In this document: in pieces, positions 30,550 through 38,570 of the stretch
Numbering within the stretch: position 1 is the stretch's first letter
How the letters are laid out: the number at the start of each line of letters is the position of its first letter
Assembly (NCBI RefSeq): GCF_001428895.1
Contig: NZ_LMJA01000022.1
Coordinates: 295,000-358,999, forward strand
DNA from: Mycobacterium sp. Root265
Lineage (GTDB): Bacteria > Actinomycetota > Actinomycetes > Mycobacteriales > Mycobacteriaceae
Reading direction: 5' to 3'
Length of the DNA: 64,000 bases
The notes under the pieces: model-generated
The model's input: only the letters and a program-made list of their open reading frames with translations
Database searches by the model: none
What the model was told of the DNA's origin: nothing
Position numbers and translations under genes: made by a program

Positions 30550-31491
30550 ATGCGGGAACTCAAGGTCGTCGGGCTCGACGTGGACGGCAAGCGGCTCATC
30601 TGCGAGGCCCCCGACTCCGGTGACAATTTCGCCATTCGTGTCGACAACCGTCTGCGGGCCGCCGTGCGCGGCGACAAGGCCACCTCCAATCAAACCGAGA
30701 TCGAGGTCGAGGTGAGCTCAGGCTTGCGTCCCAAGGAGATCCAGTCCCGCATTCGTGCGGGCGCTTCGGTGGAGCAGGTCGCCGCACTGGCCGGTGAGGA
30801 CATCGACCGGATCCGGCGGTTCGCCAGCCCGGTGCTGCTGGAGCGTTCCCGCGCGGCCGAGCTGGCCACCGCGGCGCATCCGGTGCTTGCCGACGGCCCG
30901 TCGGTACTGACGCTGCTGGAGACGATCACCACCGCCCTGATCTCCCGCGGCCTGGACCCGAGCGCGACCAACTGGGATGCCTGGCGCAATGAGGATGGCC
31001 GCTGGACGGTCCAGCTGGCCTGGAAGGCCGGCAAGTCCGATCTGCAGGCCCACTTCCGGTTCACGCCCGGCTCGCATGGCGGCACGGTCGTCGCGTTCGA
31101 TGACAGTGCGTCCGAGCTGATCGACCCGAGCTTCGCCCGGCCGCTGCGCCCGGTGGCCGCGGTCGCTCAACTCGACTTCGAAGTGGCGCCGGTCGCCGTT
31201 CATGCCCCCGTTTACCCGTCCCAGGTCCCGGTCCACCCGTCCCAGGTGGTGCTGCCGCCGCAGGCCCCTGCGCCGGTGGCCGCCGCACCGGTAACCGCCC
31301 CGGTCGCTCCCCCGGCCCCGCCATCTCCCGCGCCCGCACCTCAGGCCACTCCCGCTCCGGCTACCGCCGGCGCCGAAGCCGAGGCGGACGAGGAGCCGGC
31401 ACCGAAGCCGCGCCGCGCCCGTAAGGCCAAGCCGTCTGTCCCCGCGTGGGAAGACGTCCTGCTGGGCGTGCGTTCCGGCACCCAGCGCTGA
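30550..31491 (+). CDS. sepH: SepH, FtsZ-interacting cell division protein (Rv0883c)
   Basis: 313 residues. An N-terminal DUF3071 domain contains a helix-turn-helix-like segment (LRPKEIQSRIRAGASVEQVAALAGE, about 58-82). A middle domain follows (about 100-190), then a long Pro/Ala linker (210-280) and a conserved basic-to-acidic C-terminus ending VPAWEDVLLGVR. SepH is known in Streptomyces and mycobacteria to bind FtsZ and promote its assembly. The ribosome-binding site is GGTGGAGGTG before the ATG. Confidence 0.9.
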   Translation: MRELKVVGLDVDGKRLICEAPDSGDNFAIRVDNRLRAAVRGDKATSNQTEIEVEVSSGLRPKEIQSRIRAGASVEQVAALAGEDIDRIRRFASPVLLERSRAAELATAAHPVLADGPSVLTLLETITTALISRGLDPSATNWDAWRNEDGRWTVQLAWKAGKSDLQAHFRFTPGSHGGTVVAFDDSASELIDPSFARPLRPVAAVAQLDFEVAPVAVHAPVYPSQVPVHPSQVVLPPQAPAPVAAAPVTAPVAPPAPPSPAPAPQATPAPATAGAEAEADEEPAPKPRRARKAKPSVPAWEDVLLGVRSGTQR

Positions 31492-31504: not shown

Positions 31505-31523
31505 CCGCCCTTCAAAAGGGCGG
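31505..31523. terminator. Bidirectional hairpin between sepH and the HNH gene
   Basis: CCGCCCTT-CAA-AAGGGCGG, a perfect 8-bp stem, lies 14 bp after the sepH stop and contains the stop codon of the convergent HNH gene (31512-31514). No strong T-run follows on the plus strand. The tail-to-tail position supports a shared terminator. Confidence 0.55.
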
Positions 31524-33032
31524 GTCGCTGTTGTTCTCAATGAGTTCTGCTGCGTTGCGCTGCCGCTCGGCTTTGATCCTTTGTGCACGATCCTGCGCGC
31601 GGGTGCGTTTTCTGACCGGCATCCTGCTATCGCGGTTGGTGTCGTTGATGAGGGTGATGGCGCGTTTTCGTGGGATGGGGGTCTCGATGTTCCAGTGCGG
31701 GAACATGATTGCTGCGCCGGGGGCCTTGGTGTAGGTGTGCCCGGTGGGTGCTGACCATTGGATGCGGCCATCGGGTTTCGCTGCCGGTTCCCAACCACAG
31801 AACGTCTTGATCAGATGGTGCAGACGGCACAGTGGTGCCAGGTTGCCCGGGTGGGTGGCCCCGGCGGGCCACGGAGTCAGATGGTCGAGGTCACAGCGGT
31901 GCGCGGCCCGGTTGCAGCCCGGGAAGCTGCACGTCATGGCGCGCATCCGGACGAACGCGGTCAGTGCGGTCGAGGGCCGGTATTGGCGTTCGGCCGGCAG
32001 ATCCGCGCACTCGGAGAGCGGCTTCACTTTGGCGCCGGTCGCGACGAGTTCGGCCAGCATGGCGGCGGGGATGATGGCGCCGTCGAGCATCACCCCGGGG
32101 CTGGGATTGCAGGCCGCGGGTGGGGTGTTGGCCGCGGGTTCGGCGCGGGCCGCAGGTTCGGCGGGCTCGTCGGGTTCGGATTCGGCTGCCGGAGTCTGCT
32201 GCTCTTTCTCCGGCGCAGTCTCGGTCTCGGCGGGCGCCGTTTCCGGGGTGGCCGCGGTGCCCGGGCTGGTGTGCCGCGGAGACTCTTGACCGGCGGAGGG
32301 CACCTGGTCGGTCAGCACATAGATGGTCACTGCGCCCGAGCGCGGATCTTTCCCGCCGCCCTCACAACCAGCACCCCCACACGCGCACGCCAGCCGCTCC
32401 AGTTGCGGACCCACCGCACCCAACGCGGCCAACGCCGCAGCACGCAGCTCGCCCCGCGCACGGGGATCATTCGGGCAGACGGTGTCGGCCAGGTCGTTGA
32501 GGCGCTGTTCGAGGATCTTCTTGTCGGTGACACGCAGCCGACCCCAGAACGAGGACACCCCATTGGGGTCGTCCTTGTCGTCGAACTCCACGTGAAGATC
32601 TTTCGCGTTGCGCTTGGAGCGCACGACGGCTTCGGGGTCGAATTTCTCCACCCACAGATCGATCGCGCCGATCAACTGTTTCTCCGAATGCGCCCCGTAC
32701 TCGCCCGCTTCGCCGGCGATGGCGGTATCGATCAGCACGAGCGCGTCGTCGTCGACGACCTGGTGGGTGCGCCAGGTGATCGCATCGATCACCGCCATCG
32801 AGATCGCACCCTTCCCAAATAGTGCGGCGGTGCGGGGCAGCCGGTCGCGTAGGGCCTGGGCGATGCGCATCTGCTTGGACGCCGCGTGGGTGTTCAGATT
32901 GCAAGCCGCCGCCACCGCGGCCTGAGCCCACGCCCAACCATCGATGACCTGATGGGCGATCACGTCGTCCTCGTCATCGCACTGGCGGGCCACCACCTCA
33001 CCGATGAACGCCAACCGCGCCGCGGCAGCCAT
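31512..33032 (-). CDS. 13E12-repeat family HNH endonuclease (DUF222), N-terminus frameshifted
   Basis: 506 residues from the ATG at 33032. A DUF222 domain (about 5-235), an acidic Glu/Pro/Ala linker (about 240-310) and a C-terminal HNH domain (about 370-425) with CSFPGCN, CDLDHLTPWPAG, NLAPLCRLHH. This is the REP13E12 family, present in many copies in mycobacteria and used as phage integration targets in M. tuberculosis (known). A 24-codon piece starting at the ATG at 33111 encodes the usual family start MFEVLDRAAL but lies one base out of frame, so the protein either starts late or has lost its N-terminus. Confidence 0.8.
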   Translation of the reverse strand: MAAAARLAFIGEVVARQCDDEDDVIAHQVIDGWAWAQAAVAAACNLNTHAASKQMRIAQALRDRLPRTAALFGKGAISMAVIDAITWRTHQVVDDDALVLIDTAIAGEAGEYGAHSEKQLIGAIDLWVEKFDPEAVVRSKRNAKDLHVEFDDKDDPNGVSSFWGRLRVTDKKILEQRLNDLADTVCPNDPRARGELRAAALAALGAVGPQLERLACACGGAGCEGGGKDPRSGAVTIYVLTDQVPSAGQESPRHTSPGTAATPETAPAETETAPEKEQQTPAAESEPDEPAEPAARAEPAANTPPAACNPSPGVMLDGAIIPAAMLAELVATGAKVKPLSECADLPAERQYRPSTALTAFVRMRAMTCSFPGCNRAAHRCDLDHLTPWPAGATHPGNLAPLCRLHHLIKTFCGWEPAAKPDGRIQWSAPTGHTYTKAPGAAIMFPHWNIETPIPRKRAITLINDTNRDSRMPVRKRTRAQDRAQRIKAERQRNAAELIENNSDPPF

Positions 33033-33172
33033 CGCCTCCAGCAGTCACCGCCGAGATGAGCGCCTCATCGCTCAACCCGGCGAGTGCGGCCCGATCCAAG
33101 ACTTCGAACATACGTGCGAGTGTAATGAAGGGGTACGACAAGTCCCCCGAACCGACATCCGGGCACGAAAAA

Positions 33173-33192
33173 GGGAAGGCCTTCGCCTTCCC
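33173..33192 (-). terminator. Hairpin with U-tract on the minus strand
   Basis: GGGAAGGC-CTTC-GCCTTCCC is a perfect 8-bp stem. Read leftward it is followed by TTTTT (33172-33168), the layout of an intrinsic terminator facing the HNH gene. No minus-strand gene lies immediately to its right. It may insulate the HNH gene from leftward transcripts or attenuate a distal promoter. Confidence 0.45.
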
Positions 33193-33201
33193 ACTCTCAA
33201 T

Positions 33202-33235
33202 TTATAGCGCACCCCGGGGCTTGCGGCAAGACCCG
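33202..33235 (+). promoter_or_regulatory. Rifamycin-associated element (RAE) with adjacent -10 box
   Basis: The 19-mer GGGGCTTGCGGCAAGACCC (33216-33234) matches the published RAE consensus, as I recall it, at all but one position. It is the core of an inverted repeat CGGGGCTTGC-G-GCAAGACCCG (33215-33235) with one mismatch. TTATAG (33202-33207) just upstream is a plausible -10, so the element would span the first transcribed bases. RAEs are known upstream of rifamycin-inactivating and helR genes in actinomycetes and are needed for rifamycin induction. The element is 59 bp before the glycosyltransferase start. Confidence 0.8.
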
Positions 33236-33293
33236 GGTCATGCCGCAAAATCGCTCGCCTGAAAGAAAATTCACCACACCAGGGGGCCACACA

Positions 33294-34475
33294 ATGCGAG
33301 TTCTGCTGTACACGTTCGGGTCGCGCGGGGACGTCGAGCCACTGCTGGCGCTGGCGCTCGAACTGCACAAGCACGGCGCCGACGCCCTTATCTGCGCGCC
33401 GCCGGACTTCACCGATCTGCTCGAGGCGGCGGGGGTGCCGATGGTGCCGACCGGACCCTCGGTGCGCGAGCTGGTGCACGTCCAGAAGGCCACCCATAAG
33501 GACGCGCCTGCACTCGCCGCAGCATTGGTGGCCGGCCAGTTCGAGTTGCTCGATACCGCCACGGAATGCGACGCCATCGTCGCGACCGGTTTGATGCCTG
33601 CCGGGATGCGCTCCATCGCCGAACTGCTCCACGTGCCCTACCGATGCGTCATGTTCACCCCGCAGGTGCTGCCGTCTCCGGACTACCGCCCGCTGCCGCG
33701 GCCGGGGAAACCGTTTCCCGATGGTGAGACCGACAACCGGGTGCTGTGGGATCTGGACGCCGAGAAGATCCAGGTGCTCTACGGCCCCGCGCTGAACGAC
33801 AATCGGACAGCGAGAGGCCTGGAACCGGTGGACAACGTCCGAGACCACACGTTCACCGAATCCCCCTGGCTCGCGTCCGACCCGGTGCTGAGCCCGCTAC
33901 ACGCCCACCCCGGCTTCGACGTCGTGCAGACCGGCGCCTGGATCGTGCCCGATGAGCGCCCGCTACCACCCGATCTGCAGGCGTTCCTCGACGCCGGCCC
34001 GCCGCCGGTGTTCGTCGGCTTCGGCAGCGTGACCGCACCCGAGGAGGCCGCCCAGGTGGCCATCGAGGCGATCCGGGCCCATGGCCACCGGGTGCTGATC
34101 GGCAGCGGATGGGCGGGCCTGAGCACGGCCGATCCCGACAGTTTCGTCATTGGCGAGGTCAACCAGCAGGCACTTTTCCCGCGGGTGGCGGCGGTGATAC
34201 ACCACGGCGGCGCGGGCACCACGACAACCGCGGCGCGGGCCGGAGCACCGCAGGTGGTGGTTCCGCAGATCGTCGATCAGCCCTACTGGGCGGGCCGGGT
34301 CGCCGACCTGGGCATCGGGGTGGCGCACTACGACCCGACGCCGACCGTCCATTCACTCGCGGAGGCGCTTAGGCTGGTACTGACCCCCGAGACCCACACC
34401 AGAGCGATCGCCGTGGCCGGCACCATTCGCACCGACGGGGCGGCAAGGGCCGCAAAGATGCTGCTGAACGCGTGA
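33294..34475 (+). CDS. GT1-family glycosyltransferase, candidate rifamycin glycosyltransferase
   Basis: 393 residues from the ATG at 33294 with AGGGGG upstream. GT-B fold: an N-terminal acceptor domain starting MRVLLYTFGSRGDVEPLLAL, and a C-terminal donor domain with FVGFGSV, then HHGGAGTTTTAARAGAPQVVVPQIVDQPYWAGRV, the nucleotide-sugar signature of macrolide and glycopeptide glycosyltransferases. As the first gene behind an RAE and before helR, it is best explained as inactivating rifamycin by glycosylation, as Rgt does in Streptomyces; that role is inferred. Without the context it would be called a lipid or glycopeptidolipid glycosyltransferase. Confidence 0.85.
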   Translation: MRVLLYTFGSRGDVEPLLALALELHKHGADALICAPPDFTDLLEAAGVPMVPTGPSVRELVHVQKATHKDAPALAAALVAGQFELLDTATECDAIVATGLMPAGMRSIAELLHVPYRCVMFTPQVLPSPDYRPLPRPGKPFPDGETDNRVLWDLDAEKIQVLYGPALNDNRTARGLEPVDNVRDHTFTESPWLASDPVLSPLHAHPGFDVVQTGAWIVPDERPLPPDLQAFLDAGPPPVFVGFGSVTAPEEAAQVAIEAIRAHGHRVLIGSGWAGLSTADPDSFVIGEVNQQALFPRVAAVIHHGGAGTTTTAARAGAPQVVVPQIVDQPYWAGRVADLGIGVAHYDPTPTVHSLAEALRLVLTPETHTRAIAVAGTIRTDGAARAAKMLLNA

Positions 34476-34504
34476 ACCAGAACTTACGAAACAACAAGGG
34501 GCAC

Positions 34505-36688
34505 ATGACAACCCAGGACTACCAGGCAGAACTAGAGGCCGAGCGCGGGTACGTGGCCGCGCTGTATGACCGGCTGGATGGCGAACGGGCGCGCGCCAAG
34601 GACCGCTATTCCGCGGCGCTCAAGGGCGATATCGACAAACAGGACGGGTCCACCCTGGTCAACCGCGACGCCGACGTGCGTGCGCTGGGCAAAGAGGTCA
34701 GCAGGCTCGACGTGGCCGACAGTGGACTGTGCTTCGGCCAACTCGAGAGCATCGAAGGTGAGCGGTCCTACATCGGGCGGCTCGGGTTGTTCGACAACGA
34801 GAACGACTACGAGCCGCTGCTACTGGACTGGCGGGCACCGGCGGCCCGGGCGTTCTATGTGGCCACCGCCGCCAGCCCGGAGAACATGCGGCGCAGGCGC
34901 CAGTTCCACACCCGCGGGCGCAAGGTCCTCGACTTCACTGATGAGGTGCTGGGCCGTCCCGACGCCGGTGAGCGCGGCGACGCCGCCCTGCTGGCGGCCG
35001 TCAACGCACCGCGCACCGAGGGCATGAGCGATATCGTCGCGACGATCCAGGCCGAGCAGGACGAGATCATCCGGCTCGATCAATCCGGGGTGCTCGTCAT
35101 CGAGGGCGGCCCGGGCACCGGCAAGACAGTGGTGGCGCTGCACCGGGTGGCCTACCTGCTGTACACCCAGCGCGAGCGGATGGAGCGGCACGGCGTGCTG
35201 GTCATCGGCCCCAGCCCGGCGTTTCTCAACCACGTCGGCCGGGTGCTGCCCTCACTCGGTGAGACCAATGTCGTGTTCATGACCACCGGCGACCTCGTGC
35301 CGGGGCTGCACACCACCGCCGAGGATGCCCCGGATGCCGCGCGGGCCAAGGGTTCCCTGAAGATGCTCGACGTCCTCAAGGCCGCCGTCGCCGACCGTCA
35401 GCGCACCCCGGAGGATCCGCTGCCGATCAAGCTGGCCGACGTCACCGTGGAGATCAACGCCGAGGCCGCCGCCTGGGCGATCCAGGAGGCACGCGAGGCG
35501 GGGCTGCCGCACAACGACGCCCGGGCGGTGTTCACCGATGTCATCACCTGGGTGCTCACCGAACGCGCGATCGCGCGAATCGGCAAGGGCTGGTTGACCC
35601 GTGACGACAAGCAGGCCTGGGAGCATCTGCGCGCCGAACTGCTCGATGAGCTCGAAGATCACGATGCCTTCAAGGCTGCGCTGGACGAACTGTGGCCGGA
35701 ACTGACACCGGAATCGCTGCTGGGTGCCCTCTACGAATCCCCCGAACGACTCAAGGCCGCCGGTGCCGACGAGTCGTTGTGGCGACAGGACGGGCGGGCC
35801 TGGACGGTGTCGGACGTCCCGCTGCTCGACGAGCTGGTGGATCTGCTCGGCGGGATCAAACCCGATGCGAACGCCGAGAAGGAACGCCAGGAGGAAGCCG
35901 CGTACGCCGCGGGCGTGCTGGATCTGATGGTGGCCCGCGAGGACCTGATGGACGATGAGGACCATCTGATCGCCGCGGATCTCATCGACGCCGAGGAGCT
36001 GGCCGACAGGTTCATCGAGCAGGACAACCGCGAACTGGCCGAACGCGCAGCCGCGGACCGGGATTGGACCTACCGCCACGTGGTGGTCGACGAGGCCCAG
36101 GAACTCTCGGAGATGGATTGGCGGGTGTTGATGCGGCGCTGCCCTGCGCGATCCTTCACCATCGTCGGCGACCTGGCGCAACGTCGTTCCGAAGCGGGTG
36201 CACGGTCCTGGGACACCATGCTGGCGCCGTATGTGAAGAAGCGCTGGGTGTATCGGCCGCTGACGGTGAACTACCGCACCCCGGCGGAGATCATGGCCGT
36301 CGCCGCCGCGGTGCTCGCCGAGTTCGCGCCAGGTATCCAGCCACCGGAATCGGTACGCTCGTGCGGCGTGCAGCCGTGGTCGAGGAAGGTGAGCGAAGAC
36401 GAACTCGACACGGCGATCAAGGAATTCGTCGAGGACGAGGCGACCCGCGAGGGCACCAGCGTGGTGATCGGCCCGCCCGGGGTGCCCGGCACGGTGCCGG
36501 CCGCACTGACCAAGGGACTGGAGTTCGACGCCGTGCTGGTGGTTGCCCCGGAGCGGATCATCGCCGACGGCCCACGCGGGGCGGCCGAACTCTATGTCGC
36601 CCTGACCCGCGCCACCCAGCGTCTGGGCGTGTTGCACCACGGTGATCTGCCGCCGTCACTGAAAGGGCTTGACCTGAATGAAGGTTGA
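34505..36688 (+). CDS. helR: HelR, RNA polymerase-binding UvrD-like helicase (rifamycin protection)
   Basis: 727 residues from the ATG at 34505 with AAGGGG upstream; a GTG at 34472 overlapping the glycosyltransferase stop (GTGA) is the alternative. An N-terminal helical arm (about 1-60), SF1 motor with Walker A GGPGTGKT near 201-208, Walker B VVVDEAQE near 525, C-terminal motif ELYVALTRA near 700, and an acidic loop DLMDDEDH near 480 like the primary-channel loop of the HelD/HelR family. HelR proteins bind RNA polymerase and displace rifamycins (known from M. abscessus and Streptomyces). The RAE two genes upstream strongly supports this identity. Confidence 0.85.
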   Translation: MTTQDYQAELEAERGYVAALYDRLDGERARAKDRYSAALKGDIDKQDGSTLVNRDADVRALGKEVSRLDVADSGLCFGQLESIEGERSYIGRLGLFDNENDYEPLLLDWRAPAARAFYVATAASPENMRRRRQFHTRGRKVLDFTDEVLGRPDAGERGDAALLAAVNAPRTEGMSDIVATIQAEQDEIIRLDQSGVLVIEGGPGTGKTVVALHRVAYLLYTQRERMERHGVLVIGPSPAFLNHVGRVLPSLGETNVVFMTTGDLVPGLHTTAEDAPDAARAKGSLKMLDVLKAAVADRQRTPEDPLPIKLADVTVEINAEAAAWAIQEAREAGLPHNDARAVFTDVITWVLTERAIARIGKGWLTRDDKQAWEHLRAELLDELEDHDAFKAALDELWPELTPESLLGALYESPERLKAAGADESLWRQDGRAWTVSDVPLLDELVDLLGGIKPDANAEKERQEEAAYAAGVLDLMVAREDLMDDEDHLIAADLIDAEELADRFIEQDNRELAERAAADRDWTYRHVVVDEAQELSEMDWRVLMRRCPARSFTIVGDLAQRRSEAGARSWDTMLAPYVKKRWVYRPLTVNYRTPAEIMAVAAAVLAEFAPGIQPPESVRSCGVQPWSRKVSEDELDTAIKEFVEDEATREGTSVVIGPPGVPGTVPAALTKGLEFDAVLVVAPERIIADGPRGAAELYVALTRATQRLGVLHHGDLPPSLKGLDLNEG

Positions 36689-36706
36689 GGTTCTACCGTC
36701 CGACCC

Positions 36707-37492
36707 ATGAGTGCGATCGGGCTGGCCAGCAGCAATCCGTACACCGATGACGCGGCCGTCGTCGCCGAGGAGGCGCGGCAGGCGCAGGACCTCGGGTACG
36801 CCACCTTGTGGCGGTCCGGCGACCTGCCGATGATCGCGGCGGCGGTGCGCGCCACCAGCACCATTCCGGTTGCCACCGGGATCATCTCGGTATCGCGGGT
36901 GCCGGCCGCCGACGTCATCGCCCTGCACGGCGACCTGGAACCGGGCCGGTTCGTGGTGGGAATCGGTGGTGCGCACGGTCCGCGGCCACTGGAGACCATC
37001 GGCGGTTATCTGGACGAACTGGATGCGGCCGGCATCCGCGCCGGAGTACTGGCCGCGCTCGGGCCGAACATGCTGGCGCTGGCACGTGAGCGTGCCGGCG
37101 GCGCGTACCCCTACTTGGTGACGCCCGAGTATGTGGCGCAGGCCCGAGAACAACTCGGGGCAGACCGCACCCTGGCGGTGCTGCAGATGGTGATCCCGCT
37201 GACCGATCGCGACGATGTGCGCCGGGCGGCATCCGGGCCACTGGAGTTCCTGGCCTGGAAACCGGGCGGGTACCGCCGAAACCTGTTGCGCCAGGGCTTC
37301 ACCGAGGCCGATATCGATCAGGTGAGTGACCGGCTGCTCGACGGCATCACCGCCTGGGGTGAACCGCAGCGCATCGCCGAACGTGTCGCCGAATACCACG
37401 CGGCCGGTGCCGATCAGGTCGTGCTGCGCATCGTCGGTGCGGACGATATCGCCTTGTGGCGGACGAAAATCGCTGCGATGCTGCTGAATTAA
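36707..37492 (+). CDS. Luciferase-like F420-dependent oxidoreductase
   Basis: 261 residues, shorter than the usual 330. A TIM-barrel luciferase-like fold is indicated by EEARQAQDLGYATLWRSGD, IPVATGIISV, GRFVVGIGGAHGPRP and the final ADQVVLRIVG. Short members of this type (TIGR03620-like) are common in mycobacteria and use F420 or flavin. It begins 18 bp after helR without an obvious promoter, so it probably belongs to the RAE operon; whether it acts on rifamycin is unknown. Confidence 0.8.
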   Translation: MSAIGLASSNPYTDDAAVVAEEARQAQDLGYATLWRSGDLPMIAAAVRATSTIPVATGIISVSRVPAADVIALHGDLEPGRFVVGIGGAHGPRPLETIGGYLDELDAAGIRAGVLAALGPNMLALARERAGGAYPYLVTPEYVAQAREQLGADRTLAVLQMVIPLTDRDDVRRAASGPLEFLAWKPGGYRRNLLRQGFTEADIDQVSDRLLDGITAWGEPQRIAERVAEYHAAGADQVVLRIVGADDIALWRTKIAAMLLN

Positions 37493-37758
37493 GAAAAAGC
37501 GAGGGCCAGCGCGACCACCCAGCCGACCGCCACACCGACCCCGGATCCCCACACGAACCACCGCCAGACCGGTAACTTGCGCCAGCCCCACACTGTGGGC
37601 GCCAGCCCTCCGACGGCGACCAGGTTCAGGCCCACCGCCAGCAGCGGGTGGATACTGATCAACCCGCGGCTGAGCACCACGATCGCCACGCCCACCACCG
37701 CGGCCACGAAGGCCGCGACCGTCAGGCCGGTGCCCCAGGGTGTGTCGGCTTCGGTCAC
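37489..37758 (-). CDS. DUF2537 membrane protein (Rv0882)
   Basis: 89 residues from a GTG start, with three predicted helices (about 11-30, 38-56, 66-87). It matches the conserved small protein Rv0882 in position and pattern. The GTG overlaps the rRNA methyltransferase stop by 4 bp, so the two are coupled. Its stop overlaps the end of the luciferase-like gene by 4 bp, tail to tail. Function unknown. Confidence 0.82.
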   Translation of the reverse strand: MTEADTPWGTGLTVAAFVAAVVGVAIVVLSRGLISIHPLLAVGLNLVAVGGLAPTVWGWRKLPVWRWFVWGSGVGVAVGWVVALALAFS

Positions 37759-38570
37759 GGGTCCAACCTAGCGCGCTCATAGAACGCGAGTGCGGCGGCG
37801 GTCGCGACGTTCAGCGAATCGGTGCCCCGCGACATCGGGATGCGCACCCGCACATCGGCGGACCGCATGGTGTGCTCCTTCAGGCCCGGCCCCTCGGCAC
37901 CGACCATCATCGCCACCTTGTCCCCCGCCAGGTCGGCCATCGCCGACGCCAGCGTCGGCGCCTCCGGATTGGGCGTCATCGCCAACACCCGGAAGCCCTT
38001 GCCGCGCAACACCACAAGATCCTCGGGCCAGGATGTCGCCCACGCGTAGGGCACCAGCAGGGCGTGCCCCATCGAGACCCGCACCGCGCGCCGGTACAGC
38101 GGGTCCGCGCAACCGACACCGAACAGCACGCCGTCCACGCCCAGCCCGGCGGCATTGCGGAAGATCGACCCGAGGTTCTCGTGGTCGTTGACGCCCTCGA
38201 GCACCGCGACGGTGCGCGCATCCGCAATCACCTCGTCGACGGTCAACTCGCCCGGTCGCGGCGCGGCCGCCAGCACGCCGCGGTTGAGGTGAAATCCCAC
38301 CGCGGCGGCCATCACCTCCGCAGTGGCCCGGTAGAACGAGACGTCGACGCCGGCCAGGTCCTCGGTCAGCTCCGCCAGCCTGCGGTCGGTGCCCAGCAGT
38401 GCGCGCGGACGGAACCGGGAGGCCAGCATGCGCTGCACCACCAGCACCCCCTCGGCGATCACCAGGCCCTTGCCGCTCGGCAGATCGGGACGTCGGTCGA
38501 CGCTGTTGAGATCGCGGAAATCGTCGAGGCGCGGGTCGGCGGGATCCTCGATATCGACTATGTGGGCCAG
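37755..38570 (-). CDS. SpoU/TrmH-family RNA 2'-O-methyltransferase (Rv0881), non-canonical start
   Basis: The C-terminal SPOUT domain shows motif 1 NDHENLGSIFRNAAG, motif 2 VGAEGPGL and motif 3 IPMSRGTDSLNVATAAALAFYE, with an N-terminal RNA-binding substrate domain. The first ATG/GTG/TTG is GTG at 38462 (235 residues), but the frame upstream encodes the conserved family N-terminus HIVDIEDPADPRLDDF and on to SGKGLVIAEGV. No standard start lies between the in-frame stop and this segment; CTG at 38570, 1 nt after the MarR stop, is the likely start (271 residues; 288 in Rv0881). It methylates a ribose in rRNA or tRNA. Confidence 0.8.
   Translation of the reverse strand: MAHIVDIEDPADPRLDDFRDLNSVDRRPDLPSGKGLVIAEGVLVVQRMLASRFRPRALLGTDRRLAELTEDLAGVDVSFYRATAEVMAAAVGFHLNRGVLAAAPRPGELTVDEVIADARTVAVLEGVNDHENLGSIFRNAAGLGVDGVLFGVGCADPLYRRAVRVSMGHALLVPYAWATSWPEDLVVLRGKGFRVLAMTPNPEAPTLASAMADLAGDKVAMMVGAEGPGLKEHTMRSADVRVRIPMSRGTDSLNVATAAALAFYERARLDP

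Follow-up and report, generated by a model that had tools for sequence, protein, structure and literature searches.

Within the window, by which we mean the whole 64,000-nucleotide stretch of a Mycobacterium sp. Root265 contig that was analysed, genes for an Rgt-like glycosyltransferase and for HelR lie behind an exact copy of the rifamycin-associated element (RAE). These genes probably constitute a rifamycin-inducible two-gene operon, with the RAE serving as a bidirectional promoter module in which an outward promoter competes with a sense promoter. The parts of the module, their spacings and conservation, the gene families involved, the rarity of the gene pair and its chromosomal location were observed directly. 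The new part, judged from sequence, appears to be the embedding of the RAE in a longer module that carries two back-to-back predicted promoters.

An exact RAE precedes the predicted operon

33216..33234, plus strand: rifamycin-associated element (RAE), 19 bp, an exact match that is genome-unique at up to two mismatches
33294..34475, plus strand: Rgt-like GT-B glycosyltransferase, 393 aa, predicted to inactivate rifamycins (family scan, RAE linkage and tree)
34505..36688, plus strand: helR (class II HelD, RNA polymerase protection), 727 aa, 29-bp gap after the glycosyltransferase gene
36707..37492, plus strand: LLM-class F420-type oxidoreductase, accessory, 261 aa, 18-bp gap after helR, not conserved with the operon

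An earlier note on this DNA had placed a near-consensus RAE before three genes, and this reading holds. Positions 33216-33234 (GGGGCTTGCGGCAAGACCC) show no mismatch to GGGGCTTGCGGCAAGNCCC, the RAE consensus. This is the sole site at up to two mismatches in the 6.67-Mb genome, its own reverse reading being counted as the same site, and shuffles of the window yield 0.15 chance matches at up to three mismatches. The inverted repeat reported around the element is likewise present, at 12+1+12 (92%) rather than the slightly shorter 10+1+10 bp originally claimed, and the three genes do lie on the same strand, separated by 29 and 18 bp. The element is situated 78 bp upstream of the glycosyltransferase gene, and the operon has the 19-bp RAE close upstream that marks the RAE regulon. 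A 19-bp palindrome named RAE is reported to occur upstream of helD/helR (PMC10719064, PMC8655204). The same genome also has an arr gene (L259, on contig 2), for which no recognisable RAE was found in the 400 bp upstream, the best candidate having 7 mismatches.

Two predicted promoters share the RAE

33221..33226, plus strand: predicted sense -35-like box TTGCGG (RAE positions 6-11); TTGCGG in 72/82 modules
33246..33251, plus strand: predicted sense -10 CAAAAT, 19 bp from its -35-like box; xANNNT in 102/105 modules
33224..33229, minus strand: predicted outward -35-like box TTGCCG (RAE positions 14 to 9), overlapping the sense box; TTGCCG in 71/82 modules
33199..33204, minus strand: predicted outward -10 TAAATT, 19 bp from its -35-like box; TANNNT in 97/105 modules

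Alignment of RAE-bearing modules on the element itself reveals conservation reaching far past its 19 bp. Two hexamers are placed symmetrically about the element, each separated by 19 bp from a TTGCNG box within it; when the positions are shifted by 1-6 bp, the outward TANNNT is found in at most 3 and the sense xANNNT in at most 11 of 105 modules. The underlying 82-module set comprises loci having an RAE with at most two mismatches and enough flank, drawn from 12/12 mycobacterial glycosyltransferase loci, 14/30 mycobacterial helR loci and 56/77 named glycosyltransferase loci, the last being taken from the best 80 of 577 confirmed matches. The 105-module set adds 23 modules from L101-L130, four reverse readings of the palindrome having been skipped.

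A strict box rule, requiring a first base other than T on the gene side and TANNNT on the outward side, describes 73 of the 82 modules. Among the nine that miss it are all three from Pseudomonadota (L178, L197 and L206), and three others (L054, L143 and L186) look by eye to be shifted by one base. Taken separately, the gene-side base differs from T in 78 of 82 modules, with T occurring in L178, L182, L197 and L206. A candidate outward -10 at 17-bp spacing (TATA, 69/82) was dropped because TANNNT at 19 bp is better conserved (74/82; 97/105).

The module was then read in a later, phylum-wide set of 296 genomes, 24 of which had a match, at 32 places. One place is the window's own RAE and two gave no locus, leaving 29 loci; 28 of these were read, the remaining one (L274) having been dropped by a position filter and found on later reading to have both boxes. 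For 27 of the 28 a gene could be assigned, L270 being the one left unassigned. All 27 carry [C/G]ANNNT on the gene side and TANNNT on the outward side, including those whose RAE reads the other way round, and the genes concerned encode 10 Rox, 7 HelR, 6 Rph and 3 Arr proteins and 1 glycosyltransferase. The Rph query was taken from L271, which therefore matches itself, and the 27 include two loci from the window's genus (L264, L265) and one from its family (L266). This set is separate from the first in place, not in ancestry, because its gene families are common to both. Positions, spacing and the TANNNT and xANNNT patterns were fixed beforehand; the rule excluding T on the gene side was worded after the later set had been seen.

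A strict sigma-70 scan found no promoter in the region, given a 19-bp spacer on either side and -35-like boxes that conform only to TTGCNG. Because these boxes share three base positions, polymerase bound at one should exclude polymerase from the other.

A terminator-like hairpin lies behind the predicted outward promoter

33168..33192, minus strand: terminator-like hairpin with stem 8 and loop 4 (33192-33173) and T5 tract (33172-33168), 6 nt past the outward -10

The arms of this hairpin, GGGAAGGC and GCCTTCCC (33192-33173), fold at -16.7 kcal/mol with a z-score of -3.49. A terminator scan of the 301-bp region returned one site against a shuffle mean of 0.6, so the window's hairpin by itself proves little. 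Across the modules, a perfect stem of at least 6 occurs at this position in 34 of 82, compared with an average of 13% in swapped controls, and 24 of those 34 have at least four A in the eight bases of the would-be U tract, for which the background is 5%. The full terminator-like test is passed by 42 of 82 modules, the window's among them, versus 8-15 in ten rounds of base shuffling; the other 40 fail. Stem sequences vary between lineages. No Rfam family was found at gathering scores in positions 32500-38000.

At two helR loci (L105 in G007 and L104 in G108), an open reading frame read as an MFS transporter begins ~90 bp outward from the RAE; the G007 copy, the only one scanned, is of the EmrB type. 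The outward promoter may serve this gene there, and a single RAE may thus serve two divergent genes.

A promoter-competition model and its alternatives

From the arrangement of these parts we infer that the two genes are co-transcribed, that both promoters are active and differ in strength, that rifamycins induce the operon, that the enzyme acts on these drugs, and that the drug tips the balance between the promoters. A single RAE promoter would drive the glycosyltransferase, which is expected to glycosylate and thereby inactivate rifamycin, together with helR, the product of which is expected to displace the drug from RNA polymerase. The near-palindromic RAE would supply overlapping -35-like boxes on opposite strands. 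From these, a weaker-looking sense promoter (TTGCGG-19-CAAAAT) would read into the operon, and a more consensus-like outward promoter (TTGCCG-19-TAAATT) would read away from it, with transcription predicted to stop after ~25 nt at the terminator. Polymerase should be unable to occupy both at once, so that without drug the outward promoter would hold the sense promoter down; the action of rifamycin on RNA polymerase would shift the balance toward the sense promoter. This suggests that promoter competition could itself be the sensor, instead of or beside a regulator protein.

In its broadest form, the proposal is that across Actinobacteria, before five kinds of resistance gene, the RAE is not primarily an operator and serves as the common centre of a bidirectional promoter that is asymmetric, strong outward and weak toward the gene, so that RNA polymerase itself senses rifamycins. 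We advance this generalization tentatively, as one more apt to fail than to hold. The competition model lacks one step, namely how drug-bound polymerase would free the gene-ward promoter despite the overlap. For Bacillus subtilis, PMC12802891 relates that a 17-bp shortening made both promoters interfere and abolished induction.

A 19-bp spacer is characteristic of activator-dependent promoters, and the spacing found here would also suit an RAE that is the operator for a rifamycin-responsive regulator activating the sense promoter, with the outward promoter being either a by-product of the palindrome or under the same regulator. We consider this a strong alternative that falls just short of being probable. 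The outer GGG/CCC arms are kept beyond the limits of any -35 box, and the whole 19-bp palindrome is conserved to a degree that -35 boxes would not require and an operator would. An unknown factor acting on the 19-bp palindrome has been suggested (PMC10719064, PMC12802891), and deletion of half of the RAE is reported to result in loss of induction (PMC10719064). An operator alone, however, gives no account of the outward TANNNT, which is kept on the far side from the gene in all 27 assigned modules of the later set, before five gene families, or of the terminator-like hairpin just behind the outward -10 in 42 of 82 modules.

A further possibility, which we regard as unlikely, is that the conserved block to the left of the RAE serves the sense strand, as a -10 box (TATAGC) or as a further regulator site, rather than forming an outward promoter. 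The sense strand does read TATAGC in 66 of 105 modules, and a sense P1 start of M. smegmatis helD is reported ~20 bp upstream of the RAE (PMC10719064). Yet the outward TANNNT is kept in 31 of the 39 modules that have no TATAGC, and in L055, an M. smegmatis-like helD locus, a candidate P1 -10 (TACCCT) is seen by eye further upstream, matching the reported start. The window has its hairpin at the place where L055 has TACCCT.

The glycosyltransferase belongs to an RAE-linked clade

The top family match of the glycosyltransferase is the Rgt model (NF000354), aligned over its full length with 460.9 bits, short of the curated equivalog cut-off of 800. No protein in the 249 genomes of the order exceeds this cut-off, the best reaching 714 bits, and the highest scores among eight glycosyltransferases scanned belong to L136 and L201 (663 and 681 bits). 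Two mycobacterial homologues that have no RAE score 441 and 448 bits, so close to the window's protein that the Rgt score was abandoned as a discriminator between RAE-linked and other homologues.

Linkage to the RAE divides the family more sharply. Homologues at E <= 1e-60 occur in 28 of 148 genomes of the genus. The 12 with at least 61% identity are all preceded by an RAE (0-2 mismatches) at a distance of 50-79 bp, and none of the 16 with at most 57% identity has one within 500 bp upstream (at least 6 mismatches; for one, 457 bp were available). In a tree of 105 sequences built by a quick method, from which L131, L133 and L208 were omitted as repeats of mycobacterial loci already present, the 12 RAE-linked mycobacterial proteins form one clade (support 99). 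This clade is nested in a group of 39 rows, 37 of them with an RAE (support 98), that also holds L136 and L201; the 16 mycobacterial homologues without an RAE group apart, in a clade of 19 rows that all lack one (support 99). Across the full tree, at least 10 changes of the RAE label are needed, compared with 28 in shuffles. By sequence, then, the glycosyltransferase is a member of an RAE-linked, Rgt-like clade, and in this respect the earlier reading is supported by RAE linkage and clade membership, in a tree that excludes mycobacterial lipid glycosyltransferases and Rgt1438.

It is very unlikely that the substrate of the enzyme is a lipid or some other small molecule in place of a rifamycin. 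Its score below the Rgt cut-off and its closest solved structure, GtfB (421 bits), would be compatible with such a substrate; the RAE linkage (12/12 versus 0/16), the position in the clade and the neighbouring helR all speak against it.

Beyond the phylum, glycosyltransferase genes with an RAE at one mismatch occur in the Pseudomonadota genera Bosea and Mesorhizobium (L178, L197, L206), and one with an RAE at three mismatches was seen in a Chloroflexi MAG (L203). The glycosyltransferase of L189, a record titled Mycobacterium sp. KBS0706, clusters with those of Bosea and Mesorhizobium, and the record may be misnamed.

HelR and the glycosyltransferase-helR pair

The assignment of the second gene as a HelR-type helicase is supported, as the protein exceeds two curated cut-offs (HelD_MYCSM, 1362.1 against 1051; HelR_2, 1353.6 against 1100) and is collinear with M. 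smegmatis HelD (6yxu; 1173 bits, alignment 1-723). The aligned stretch includes the presumed primary channel loop.

A helR gene is present in all 12 genomes of the genus that have an RAE-linked glycosyltransferase, versus 86 of 148 overall. The two genes adjoin each other in five of the 148 mycobacterial genomes (G000, which is the window's own, G096, G034, G121 and G070) and lie apart in the other seven with an RAE-linked glycosyltransferase. Among these seven, helR has its own RAE at up to two mismatches in G065, G081, G144, G039 and G033; an RAE lies just upstream of helR in G079, and in G066, where helR is at a contig end, no RAE of its own was seen there. Of 25 solo mycobacterial helR genes fetched, 10 have no RAE.

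An RAE at up to two mismatches occurs in 59 of the best 80 of 577 glycosyltransferase loci. In 21 of the 80, the next gene after the glycosyltransferase belongs to the HelD family, at a distance ranging from a 4-bp overlap to a 215-bp gap, and no RAE separates the two. Nineteen of these 21 pairs lie outside the genus, L131 and L133 being mycobacterial, and in two the RAE has three mismatches. The pair is found in Streptomyces, Nonomuraea, Nocardia and Kutzneria among these best 80 of 577 loci; the one Streptomyces protein scanned is HelR NF041254, and the one Nocardia protein is of the mycobacterial type. Hence the suggestion that the combination is unusual stands within mycobacteria (5/148 genomes) but not elsewhere (21 of the best 80 of 577 loci). 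In a tree of HelR proteins, the paired members of the window's clade sit beside solo mycobacterial HelRs (94/89), and the label "paired" takes three changes; several origins of the pair, or a single origin plus losses, are possible.

Chromosomal site and the oxidoreductase

30550..31491, plus strand: DUF3071 gene, presumably sepH, left flank with conserved synteny
31512..33032, minus strand: DUF222 gene, beside the operon in 4/4 syntenic species
37489..37758, minus strand: DUF2537 gene, right flank with conserved synteny

In four species, the operon and the DUF222 gene lie between the DUF3071 and DUF2537 genes. Across 15 sampled relatives, matches to these flanks are at most 50 bp apart in 8 and at most ~360 bp apart in 11. 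The distance is ~0.94 kb in G065 and ~0.76 kb in G070, and the right flank was not found within a 6-kb stretch in G122 and G107. An origin of the pair by insertion of the glycosyltransferase gene behind an RAE that already preceded helR, at the site where helR usually lies, is unsupported, because the location of the pair, between DUF3071 and DUF2537, is a different one. In two genomes, G039 (L221) and G081 (L226), a solo RAE-glycosyltransferase unit occurs in the opposite orientation at the site where other species (G122, G107, G065, G011 and G079) have a solo helR.

Before the DUF222 gene, positions 33104-33119 (TCGAACATACGTGCGA) carry an SOS-box-like site with one mismatch to the SOS-box consensus. 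Of 20 RAE-gene regions (L211-L230), 11 by raw count have a similar candidate site (at most one mismatch) no more than ~240 bp from the gene for the glycosyltransferase or HelR; by scan, the neighbouring gene is of the radical-SAM type in L214 and L221, and DUF222 in the window.

The third gene had been counted as part of the system, a view that the comparisons do not sustain. The protein exceeds the TIGR03620 LLM F420 cut-off (242 against 219.8), and the search of solved structures found no relative. Its gene is present in two of the four species with the syntenic operon (G000 and G096) and, among the best 80 of 577 glycosyltransferase loci, in a single one, the close mycobacterial relative L131. 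In G034 and G121, which do not have it, DUF2537 lies directly behind helR. Despite its position on the same strand 18 bp behind helR and its presence in G000 and G096, it is thus highly improbable as a third resistance enzyme of the operon, given its absence from G034 and G121 and its occurrence in 1 of the best 80 of 577 loci.

Significance and relation to known systems

RAE-based sensing of rifamycins in actinomycetes, including mycobacteria, is called unresolved in PMC10719064 and PMC12802891, and the module described here makes this question accessible to a reporter experiment whose outcome can be clearly predicted. In the operon, a single switch would control two predicted functions, modification of the drug and protection of its target, and the arrangement arose, or was kept, repeatedly. 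In the passages of the literature searched (PMC12802891, PMC10719064, PMC8655204, PMC13246000, PMC11464796, PMC13214531, PMC7283461, PMC10194278), neither an outward RAE promoter nor a mycobacterial operon of glycosyltransferase and helR was seen described; the primary HelR papers may mention either.

Like Rgt (Rgt1438, NF000354), the glycosyltransferase has an RAE upstream, aligns with the model over its full length and shares a clade with two higher-scoring homologues; it differs in its score (460.9 bits against a cut-off of 800), in that its substrate is predicted, and in having helR next under the same RAE. The window's HelR resembles the class II HelD proteins of M. abscessus, S. venezuelae and M. 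smegmatis in passing the family cut-offs and in its collinearity with the solved M. smegmatis structure, whereas its gene has no RAE of its own and stands second, behind the glycosyltransferase. With the RAE-linked actinomycete genes in general (rgt, rox, rph, arr and helR), the operon shares the 19-bp element and the same surrounding module, to which the present description adds the symmetric -10 boxes and, in about half of the cases, an outward terminator-like hairpin.

The closest parallel is the dual-promoter rifampicin alarm of B. subtilis helD/pps, in which, as described in PMC12802891, genes for HelD and a drug-modifying enzyme are preceded by a sense promoter that is countered by an antisense one. 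The box sequences of the window fit such a pair of opposed promoters, and the strict scan recognizes neither. In the B. subtilis alarm, the promoters are convergent and 39 bp apart, with no RAE; those predicted in the window diverge, with overlapping -35-like boxes, and their strengths are predicted from the boxes. The competition model would be related to the B. subtilis alarm in its logic and distinct from it in its geometry.
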